This document shows, piece by piece, positions 8,861-39,581 of a DNA stretch of 57,012 nt (position 1 is the first letter of the stretch; each line of letters opens with the position of its first letter). The notes below the pieces were generated by a model that saw nothing but the letters and a program-made list of their open reading frames with translations, was not told the DNA's origin and made no database searches. The stretch is from Saprospiraceae bacterium (GTDB taxonomy: Bacteria > Bacteroidota > Bacteroidia > Chitinophagales > Saprospiraceae), in the NCBI GenBank assembly GCA_027080725.1, contig JALWRC010000065.1, forward strand, positions 1 through 57,012. The letters run 5' to 3'. Position numbers and translations under genes: made by a program.

Positions 8861-9194
8861 AATCGCTTGTTTTACTTATTTGTTAATGGGTCGTGATAAT
8901 AATTTCTATCATTTTCAATTGTGTGTCACTCTTAATATGCGAGATAACATTGGCCTTTGTATCAACAGATTAATTCTTTAAGTCAAACATCCTACCGATT
9001 AGAGCGGCAATGATGAAGTAGGAGTCATTTCCTTAATGATTTCAATATGCGCACACTTATCATCTCCCCATAGAACGGCATGAAAAGTGTTTTTATCGTC
9101 CTTTTCATACCATTCCTCATTTAGCATCCAAGGTCAAAATTTTCTAATTCTCCTCCCAAAGATATGAAATACTTACCAAATAACCTTACTTATT
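8861..9194. other. Gene-poor stretch upstream of the antitoxin
   Basis: 334 bases. The only coding candidate is a 42-codon minus-strand frame at 8999-9127 (listed separately). The remainder, including the probable promoter region of the toxin-antitoxin pair at 8861-8998, shows no motif I can defend. Confidence 0.4.
8999..9127 (-). CDS. Short open frame, possible gene remnant
   Basis: 42 codons, starting MLNEEWYEKDDKNTFHAVLW and ending at a stop at 8999-9001. The amino-acid composition (Trp, Tyr, Asp, Glu, His) looks protein-like and resembles the C-terminal part of a small globular protein rather than random translation. I do not recognise the family. It may be the surviving end of a gene truncated by the repeat elements that begin at 9195, since no matching N-terminal sequence is visible upstream. 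It is as likely to be a fragment as a functional gene. Confidence 0.3.
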   Translation of the reverse strand: MLNEEWYEKDDKNTFHAVLWGDDKCAHIEIIKEMTPTSSLPL

Positions 9195-9203
9195 GATGAG
9201 ATG

Positions 9204-9718
9204 GTGTGTATTAAAAAGTGCACTAATGAGCTTTCATTAAAAAGCATTTGTATTCATAACAGAATTCATTAATGGAATAGCCTTACTTTTTGGCATTGCC
9301 CCAAAAAGTAACAAAAAGGTCTAGGCGAAATTAAGAGCTATGCGTAGTGGGGCGGCCATACCTTCTGTTGAAGGGAACACGGCAACTATGCTTCGAAGTG
9401 AAGACTGTGCCTTAATGGTACTTAGACCATAGAAGATATAATAACACAATCCCGGGTTAGCGCCGGTTCCCGCTTAGAATTTCGCCGGAATAGGCCATAT
9501 AATACATCTGCCCTGTATAGTAGCCTCTCTTAATCTTGATTGAAGAGTGGACATCTGCTAAAGAGCTACCAAAAGACTTATCTAAACCATAAACATTTAC
9601 ATGTCAATTGTTCTTGTGGAGCAGTCAGGTACCTAAAGCTATTTTCACTCCTGAAGTGACGTATTCCACCTGTGTTTTTCTCATAATTTTTCAAAAAAGT
9701 GCATTTTGTAATACACAC
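9204..9718. mobile_element. MITE-like non-coding element with terminal inverted repeats and flanking 9-bp direct repeat
   Basis: The left end (9204-9224) and the reverse complement of the right end (9698-9718) match at 19 of 21 positions (GTGTGTATTAnAAAnTGCACT). Immediately outside both ends is the same 9-mer, GATGAGATG (9195-9203 and 9719-9727), as expected for a target-site duplication. The 515-bp interior has no open frame of note. It contains a perfect 11-bp hairpin TTACTTTTTGG / CCAAAAAGTAA (9283-9293 / 9301-9311) and a GGCGAAATT / AATTTCGCC pair (9324-9332 / 9478-9486). Its size, ends and lack of coding capacity fit a non-autonomous miniature element. The transposase that would mobilise it is not in the window. 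Confidence 0.6.
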
Positions 9719-9748
9719 GATGAGATGGTGTGTATTACAAAATGCATA
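9698..9748. repeat. Head-to-head junction of two repeat-unit ends (perfect 19-bp inverted repeat)
   Basis: TGCATTTTGTAATACACAC at 9700-9718 is the exact reverse complement of 9728-9746; the 9-nt spacer is GATGAGATG. The left arm is the right end of the element at 9204-9718. The right arm begins a second related unit that ends near 9960 with AGTGTACTTTGTAATACAC. Confidence 0.75.
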
Positions 9749-9773
9749 TAAATGAACAAATGCGTCGTTTTGT

Positions 9774-9964
9774 CACCATTTTTGCATACAACACTTCTCA
9801 AGCATTTAGTCTACTGAACTGGGCAAAAATATCGCCAAAACGGTTTTGGGTGTTTTTATTTACCCTGCACCTCGCAATCGCTCGTACAGGGCTACAAAGA
9901 TGGTATCCCTACGGGATTATTTCAGTTTCTCCAATCAAAAAAGTGTACTTTGTAATACACCATC
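9774..9964 (+). repeat. Dispersed intergenic repeat family A, copy 1
   Basis: This 191-nt stretch aligns collinearly with 39392-39581. Conserved blocks include ATTTTTGCAT, GGGCAAAA, TATCGCCAA, TCGCTCGTA, AAGATGG, GGGATTATTTCAGTTTCTC and AATCAAAAAAGTG followed by TTTGTAATACAC. Its final 25 nt are the same terminal sequence that bounds the MITE-like element to the left. The segment ends about 70 nt before the glycosyltransferase start, so it may carry that gene's promoter. Confidence 0.7.
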
Positions 9965-10032
9965 AATAAAAGCACATCAAAACGAAGTGGACACCTGTTT
10001 GTATATTTGCACATCACAAAACCAGTTCAGCG

Positions 10033-10785
10033 GTGTACCAATCCAAAAAAGTAATCGTCGTCATGCCCGCCTACAACGCGGCAAAAACCATCGAAAAGAC
10101 ATTCCGGGAAATTCCCAGACCGCTTGTGGATGAAGTGATCCTGTGTGATGACGCGAGTAAGGACAATACCGTGGAAGTGGCCCAATCCCTCCACATCAAA
10201 CACATCATCGTGCACGAATCCAACAAGGGATACGGTGCCAATCAAAAATCGCTTTATGACAGGGCATTAAAAGAAGGAGCCGACATCATCATCATGCTCC
10301 ACCCCGACTACCAATACACCCCCAAGCTCATCCCGGCCATGTGCAACGTCATCGGCGAAGGGCTCTACCCCGTCGTCCTCGGCTCCAGAATCTTGGGCAA
10401 GGGAGCACTAAAAGGAGGCATGCCCCTCTATAAATATGTAGCCAATCGCTTCCTGACATTTTTCCAAAATCTATTGATAGGGAGTAAGCTTTCGGAGTTC
10501 CATACCGGGTACCGCGCCTTTAGCAGTGAGGTTTTGCAAAGTATCCCTTACCAACGCAATTCGAATGATTTCGTCTTTGACAATGAGATGCTCTCCCAGA
10601 TTATTTTTAAGGGGTATGAAATTGCTGAAATCACTACTCCGACAAAATATTTTGAAGAAGCCTCTTCCATCAATTTCAAAAGAAGCGCACAATACGGCCT
10701 GGGAGTATTACGCGTCTCCCTTGTTCACTTTTTAGCAAAACGGGGCCTTTGGAATTCTAAGTTGTATTCACAAAGCCCTCCTTAA
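10033..10785 (+). CDS. Family 2 glycosyltransferase (dolichyl-phosphate mannose synthase-like)
   Basis: 250 residues. GT-A fold signature: VIVVMPAYNAAKTI near the N-terminus, EVILCDDASKDNT about 34-46, and IIIMLHPDYQYTPKL about 85-99, where HPDYQY is the metal/substrate segment characteristic of the DPM/DPG-synthase-like subgroup. Then LGSRILGKGALKGGMP and a hydrophobic FLTFFQNLLIGSKLS segment. It probably transfers a sugar from a nucleotide donor to a lipid or glycan carrier at the membrane. The frame opens with GTG at 10033; the next in-frame ATG (Met of MPAYN) would cut the first beta strand, so GTG is preferred. It is a single gene, next to repeat DNA on its 5' side. Confidence 0.88.
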   Translation: MYQSKKVIVVMPAYNAAKTIEKTFREIPRPLVDEVILCDDASKDNTVEVAQSLHIKHIIVHESNKGYGANQKSLYDRALKEGADIIIMLHPDYQYTPKLIPAMCNVIGEGLYPVVLGSRILGKGALKGGMPLYKYVANRFLTFFQNLLIGSKLSEFHTGYRAFSSEVLQSIPYQRNSNDFVFDNEMLSQIIFKGYEIAEITTPTKYFEEASSINFKRSAQYGLGVLRVSLVHFLAKRGLWNSKLYSQSPP

Positions 10786-39402: not shown

Positions 39403-39581
39403 CATGTCAATTACCGGAAAATCAATCCATCCGGACCGGGCAAAATATCGCCAATACGGCCTTGGGTATTCATATTTACGCTGAACTTTGCTGTCGCTCG
39501 TAATGGCTATTAAGATGGCATCCCTATGGGATTATTTCAGTTTCTCAAATCAAAAAAGTGCAGTTTGTAATACACCCCATC
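39392..39581 (+). repeat. Dispersed intergenic repeat family A, copy 2
   Basis: Collinear with 9774-9964 over 190 nt in the same orientation, roughly three quarters identical by eye. The right end reads AATCAAAAAAGTG then TTTGTAATACAC, the same end sequence as the elements at 9.2-10 kb. Confidence 0.7.

Follow-up and report, generated by a model that had tools for sequence, protein, structure and literature searches.

A large family of gene-less MITEs with tandem arrays in a Saprospiraceae bacterium, most likely moved by ISKra4-like transposases

Results

The stretch of DNA analysed here (the window, 57,012 nucleotides of contig JALWRC010000065.1, assembly GCA_027080725.1) comes from a Saprospiraceae bacterium and carries a 515-bp MITE with an interior of family A at 9204..9718 on the forward strand, as delimited by family matches, end alignment, and the duplication and clustering analyses. 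The left terminal inverted repeat, GTGTGTATTAAAAAGTGCACT, occupies 9204..9224 (+) and the right one, whose reverse complement is GTGTGTATTACAAAATGCACT, occupies 9698..9718 (-); both were read from the sequence and placed in an alignment of 118 ends. The first-pass annotation had described inverted 21-bp ends, a 9-mer on both sides and a non-coding interior, and each of these was read in its place. The two ends agree at 19 of 21 positions. The 9-mer GATGAGATG stands at 9195..9203 (from the sequence, with the boundary seen family-wide) and again at 9719..9727, where it doubles as the spacer to a neighbouring element (from the sequence and the junction analysis); neither copy is assigned a strand. 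No open reading frame of at least 60 amino acids with an ATG, GTG or TTG start overlaps 9204-9718.

The proposal of a mobile element also stood, but the limits given for it, 9195-9727, did not. In the 118-end alignment, conservation starts at GTGTGTATTAC, the first conserved base being the G of GTGTGTATTA (G 86%, T 80%), and the base just outside is free, the commonest one reaching only 39%. Since nothing beyond the first base of the terminal repeat is conserved, the 9-mers are external and the element proper is 9204-9718. The end motif of the family is GTGTGTATTACAAARTGCACT. The fold of the 515-bp element was more stable than that of shuffled sequences on both strands (z -2.8 and -3.4), partly because the inverted ends pair.

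A 235-bp MITE with an interior of family B follows in tandem at 9728..9962 (+), and the last two bases of its right end have diverged (family matches, pairing, clustering). It had been noticed before that a second unit starts at 9728 with the same end sequence, and the shared ends were indeed seen: counted from the 9-mer onward, the first 28 bp of the two units are 93% alike. The interior of this unit falls in a different BLAST cluster from that of the 515-bp element, and its right flank, TCAATAAAA, does not repeat GATGAGATG. The suggestion of a nested insertion was not upheld, as the relative is a different element in tandem with the 9-mer between the two. A partial family-B copy with a single terminal repeat lies at 39435..39577 (+) (family matches, end alignment). 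The tandem pair sits in a divergent spacer, upstream of the gene at 10033, which appears glycosyltransferase-like from its sequence. The pair is bracketed by TTATTGATG (9190-9198) and its reverse complement CATCAATAA (9961-9969), which overlaps the diverged final two bases of the right-hand element; these flanking sequences could be a matter of chance or the trace of an inversion.

Copies of the ends are abundant in the genome. With at most three mismatches, the 19-base end motif gave 165 forward and 156 reverse matches (321 in the 3.80-Mb genome), compared with 3 + 6 = 9 for the reversed control in the same genome, and the 21-base motif with at most two mismatches gave 97 + 89 matches against 0 for the control. 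The 515-bp element has at least 46 matches in the genome (40 of 162 candidates scored) and the B region at least 42 (40 of 176 candidates scored), partial matches counted in both cases. The 515-bp element is probably one of well over a hundred relatives in its own genome. The fetched DNA yielded 76 distinct paired elements, namely 75 MITE-like elements and the transposase-bearing L126; they were drawn from the places listed by the searches and from 56 fetched stretches, so the sample is biased towards well-kept copies. The pairs account for only a part of the 224 distinct ends seen with at most five mismatches.

When the interiors were clustered by BLAST links of at least 80 bp, cluster B had 38 members (mostly about 235 bp), C had 22 (mostly 370-580 bp) and A had 12 (mostly about 515 bp), and the remaining clusters consisted of two members, one member, and the insertion sequence L126 alone. 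At least three interiors without a mutual BLAST link are therefore carried on one common end sequence. L126, the sole insertion sequence so compared, had no such link to any other extracted element, and by this comparison the interiors of the MITEs do not seem to come from insertion sequences. The median length of the 75 paired elements, L126 excluded, was 236 bp. Nearest identities among copies ranged from 97% down to 73% (with the partner covering at least 80% of the shorter length), and since even the best pairs have diverged to 97%, the bulk of the family does not seem to have been amplified very recently. By eye, six loci (L019, L020, L169, L171, L177, L195) follow the left part of family A to just past its first hairpin and then continue in other DNA; they appear to be one-ended or truncated family-A copies with varying points of divergence. 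Elements were also seen at some contig ends (C31, C108, C63), where some nearly identical copies may have been collapsed in assembly, which is a caution for assemblies.

A search for the ends elsewhere and for empty sites had been proposed as a check of the first reading. Boundaries were found to be common to copies across the genome, many of which have copy-specific duplications of 8-10 bp. Among the 76 paired elements, exact flanking repeats of 8 bp occurred in 8 (L126 among them), of 9 bp in 7 and of 10 bp in 1, where shuffled pairings expect 0.12, 0.04 and 0.02, respectively; in all, 16 of 76 were observed against about 0.2 expected. With one mismatch allowed, a duplication of 8-10 bp was found in 26 of the 76 and not in the other 50. 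The search for empty sites gave a mixed outcome. At L057, a 235-bp copy interrupts another repeat and has CTCCGCGCT on both sides; this repeat is uninterrupted in six other copies, each with a single site, and the junction aligns to them over 20 bases leftward and up to 111 rightward. At the window locus, no alignable empty site was found in G001, the sole genus relative, in which the glycosyltransferase gene beside the locus is conserved (75%) and the upstream DNA is unalignable. Neither the 515-bp element nor, at E<=1e-20, the transposase had a match in G001. The family-wide ends, the duplications and the interrupted repeat agree with the original proposal of a non-autonomous element that ends in inverted repeats and duplicates 9 bp of its target.

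Tandem placement recurs in the family. At 11 junctions in the fetched DNA, a left end begins after a right end and a spacer of only 6-10 bp; four further junctions have spacers of 17, 20, 55 and 149 bp, and the two longest depend on an end with six mismatches. Eleven negative gaps were set aside, namely ten overlapping matches in which at least one side had 5-6 mismatches and one gap of -1 in L156. With the strict motif, the whole genome has six junctions at gaps of 0-30, five with spacers of 6-10 bp and one with 20, and none at gaps of 31-60. The spacer repeats an outer flank in 7 of the 11 junctions (at least 7/7, 7/8, 8/9 or 9/10, small offsets allowed), compared with 0.28 expected with random flanks; a single outer flank is known in five of the 11, and two share one array (L069). 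The plainest array is that of the window, GATGAGATG-element-GATGAGATG-element, while the 9-mers of the L130 array are CCTCCAATC, CCTCCATTC and CCTCCATTC, and the L069 array repeats GGTATTGGGG. Six junctions have both partners delimited, and in each of these the neighbouring elements are unequal in length.

The interior of the 515-bp element contains three stems. Stem H1 (TTACTTTTTGG / CCAAAAAGTAA, 9283..9311, +; sequence and alignment) has a 7-nt loop and is invariant in 13 aligned copies. Stem P1 pairs GGCGAAATT at 9324..9332 (+) with AATTTCGCC at 9478..9486 (+) (sequence and alignment), and within it stem P2 pairs GGGAACACGGC at 9373..9383 (+) with GCCGGTTCCC at 9462..9471 (+) (alignment). 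The inner palindromes listed earlier, an 11-bp hairpin at 9283-9293/9301-9311 and the repeat at 9324-9332/9478-9486, are exact. The stem alignment (A3) comprises 13 family-A copies picked for near-full length, with other partial copies omitted. Over these copies, the 30 pairs of the three stems are held in 389 of 390 cells (99.7%). In P1, two pairs have had both bases replaced, A-U by C-G in L010 and U-A by A-U in L015; two such compensatory changes were reached by 2 of 500 shuffles, a count uncorrected for relatedness, and the other 28 pairs are invariant across the 13 copies and hence uninformative on structure. In 9 copies, identity was 95.5-100% for the columns around the three stems and 78.3% for the remaining columns. 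When 9 copies were folded to a consensus without constraints, the covariation term was +3.88, which is unfavourable as a whole. No Rfam family matched the 515-bp element at gathering score; sub-threshold matches at E<=1, mostly microRNA models on the palindrome of two facing ends, were rejected as chance.

Four longer family-A copies (L127, L128, L130, L131) contain a palindromic module B of about 163 bp, and two of them also contain a module C of about 160 bp (GGTGCTCT...AGAGCACC). The modules in these four copies are 96-99% identical and at the same position, and their backbones are 72-84% identical; in a fifth copy, L133, the modules are 89-92% and the backbone 72-81% identical. In L131, the P1 5' arm of one sublineage is combined with the 3' arm of the other into a hybrid stem, a break that would be expected after gene conversion. 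Site-specific insertion of the inner modules was also considered and is held less likely, because the hybrid P1 of L131 fits gene conversion. Module C was found at 68-82% identity at five places without a listed family-A match (L134, L135, L136, L140, L142; 40 of 162 candidates scored). Places with module C also stand under the locus labels L203-L207.

A transposase with matching ends had been named as a further check, and it was found on insertion sequences in related genomes (L212, L109/L208, L211). The 21-base motif occurred in 15 of 396 genomes of the order, and a two-protein transposase profile at E<=1e-20 found 27 of 298 genomes of the family, the host included in both cases. The cleanest partner is L212, of 1282 bp, with GTGTGTATAACAAATTGCACA at both ends and a 9-bp duplication, GCGTTGGAT. 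L109 is an insertion sequence in a related genome with two motif-type ends, and the Saprospiraceae MAG contig SLDF01000334.1 has the same ends as those on the L109 contig. With position 15 left free, the ends of L109/L208, L211 and L212 are 1-2 mismatches from the MITE motif and those of L210 are 3. L109/L208 and L210 have two good ends and no clear duplication within the flanks examined, and L211 terminates at a contig edge. One genome, G004, has 6 + 6 end matches and no transposase match at E<=1e-20, so the ends and the enzyme are not together in every genome. In the host, the only transposase relative found was L126, of 1280 bp with an 8-bp duplication; its ends are 4 scored mismatches from the MITE motif.

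The best NCBIfam match of the L109 protein was the ISKra4 transposase model, with 178 bits against a cut-off of 205. Four ORF2 proteins had the ISKra4 model NF033572 as their best match at 178-189 bits; these scores do not reach the curated cut-off of 205, the matches starting at profile positions 66-114 with ORF1 not included. As the scores lie below 205, the partner transposases are called ISKra4-like only. In a survey of slippery runs at 10 loci, eight (L126, L109, L209, L210, L211, L212, L241, L245) had two open frames meeting at an A8-A9 run followed by G, and L242 and L246 had no such run at a frame boundary. The frame relation at the run is -1 in five of the eight and +1 (or -2) in three (L209, L210, L211); in L126, the frames of the two-ORF gene meet at an A9 run. 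Slippage at the A8-A9 run appears likely. D105, D175 and E287 of L126 ORF2 are invariant in the two-protein alignment and are presumably the catalytic triad. PDB sequences gave no match to the transposase pair.

Sixty elements have 700 bp or more of flanking DNA on each side, and in 10 of them an ORF of at least 120 aa runs across a boundary. For 53 elements an ORF was found on both sides; by crude ORF calls uncorrected for spacer length, these pairs were divergent in 23 cases, co-directional in 24 and convergent in 6. A scan of named genomes, in which the records nearest the host may be absent, gave no match to a 26-base end pattern; viral contigs had no exact match to the 21-base end pattern or the core pattern, and plasmids and phages had none to the 515-bp element.

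Discussion

Bacterial MITEs are described as non-autonomous IS derivatives (PMC10969869). The present elements agree with that description in being short and gene-less, with inverted ends, target duplications, many dispersed copies and ends shared with insertion sequences, that is, with autonomous elements. They differ from it in having at least three BLAST-unlinked interiors on one end sequence, in forming tandem arrays with duplication-length spacers, and in having palindromic inner modules of about 160 bp and, in family A, a conserved stem core. No title among the open-access literature matches listed dealt with a MITE of such kind in Saprospiraceae. We regard these elements as a real and large family of MITEs that ISKra4-like transposases most likely mobilise, and as a new family of a known kind. 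It is ordinary in kind; landing end-to-end beside relatives is unusual, and the arrays and the conserved core are the points of interest.

According to PMC3942029, ISKra4, ISMich2 and ISAzba1 elements form p-MULT 4 in the Mutator superfamily, and prokaryotic elements of the Mutator type have ends of 18-39 bp with a terminal cytosine and generate repeats of 8 or 9 bp. The MITE ends (21 bp) lie within this range, their 5' G is a terminal C on the other strand, and the duplications of the family are 8-9 bp, with 9 bp in L212 and 8 bp in L126. The partners also encode ISKra4-like transposases, mostly as two ORFs meeting at the A8-A9 run. Unlike ISKra4-type elements, the MITE has no transposase, and the ORF2 proteins of the partners fall short of the NCBIfam cut-off. 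For the ISMich2 group, a two-ORF transposase with a -1 frameshift is reported in the same source, whereas the ten loci surveyed here show -1 in five, +1 (or -2) in three and no run in two.

Our best explanation, to which we give a probability of roughly 0.86, is that the 515-bp unit is a gene-less MITE moved in trans by a Mutator-type ISKra4-like transposase, with arrays that re-use flanking 9-mers and a close partner that was lost or unassembled. An ISKra4-like (p-MULT 4) DDE transposase of the Mutator type would recognise the 21-bp ends in trans and join them to the target with an 8-9 bp stagger, and repair of the staggered target would leave the 9-mer duplicated. Elements with unrelated interiors and common ends could have been amplified by one enzyme. 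A new element would often insert exactly next to an existing copy and re-use its flanking 9-mer, giving element-9-mer-element arrays such as that at 9204-9962. The close autonomous partner would have been lost from the host genome, or left unassembled in it, with one diverged ISKra4-like element present. By a rough estimate, if every end were paired, the family would comprise about 150 elements and take up roughly 1.4% of the 3.8-Mb genome. It represents a heavy amplification, apparently by a little-studied transposase group, in a Saprospiraceae bacterium in whose genome no closely matching partner was found.

The enzyme need not have come from a lost partner: L126, the single ISKra4-like element found in the host genome, might itself drive the family at present. 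It is 1280 bp long and has an 8-bp duplication and a two-ORF gene meeting at an A9 run. We consider this unlikely, as the ends of L126 are 4 scored mismatches from the motif, against 1-2 for L109/L208, L211 and L212 elsewhere, and the best identity of 97% between paired copies speaks against a very recent bulk amplification. That the direct 9-mer belongs to a larger duplicated unit instead of being a target duplication is extremely improbable. The adjoining second unit and its agreement over the first 28 bp could be read in that way, but the flanking repeats vary from copy to copy, conservation ends at the first base of the terminal repeat, and the related empty site of L057 has a single copy of its 9-mer; the flank, boundary and empty-site results already contradict it.

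The arrays allow two routes. The duplication-length spacers make a testable prediction on how Mutator-type transposases choose their targets. Some groups of these enzymes are reported in PMC3942029 to leave 6-10 bp between the ends in circles; these are other groups than the present one, and its authors suggest that all five groups do so. The spacers seen here are in the same range, so the arrays could have come from circular or dimer intermediates instead of repeated insertion into one 9-mer, a route that is possible and at clearly less than even odds. The partners differ in length in all six fully delimited junctions and hence cannot be dimers of a single element, and an outer flank recurs in 7 of the 11 spacers, as would be expected from repeated insertion. 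The 4 junctions without a repeated flank are compatible with circles; they may be old, or come from circle-like joining. We infer that repeated insertion at the flanking 9-mer explains the spacer-flank repeats. Tentatively, the transposase may treat element ends as a preferred landing place and so build mixed arrays, and the H1-P1-P2 core of family A may be constrained, maintained and exchanged between copies while the rest drifts.

The same core could be read as a functional structured RNA or DNA signal, mobility being merely its means of spread. The retention of the stems in nearly all cells, the two pairs changed on both sides and the high identity of the core columns relative to the rest point in this direction. 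However, 28 of the 30 pairs do not vary, so that most of the structure is not probed by variation, the shuffle count is uncorrected for relatedness, the covariation term of the consensus fold is unfavourable, no Rfam family reached its gathering score, and gene conversion could hold the core uniform. Families B and C have other interiors, so the family-A core is not needed for mobility. Taken together, we judge a functional core to be quite improbable. The H1 hairpin was found with at most three mismatches in 3 of 395 genomes of the phylum, so it is not phylum-wide at this threshold, and H1-like matches by DNA similarity occurred in 6 of 60 relatives, the host included in both counts. H1-like hairpins with a tail like AACAAAAAG were seen in five other genomes of the order (L080-L084, L086-L089, L091, L092), and by eye the palindromes after them differ. 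Short palindromes, for example GCCTGTGCCGC..GCGGTA and AACGCC..GGCGTCACAGG, were also seen by eye to be variably present at the same place in the family-C copies L050, L153, L190 and L178, where they resemble REP-type insertions.
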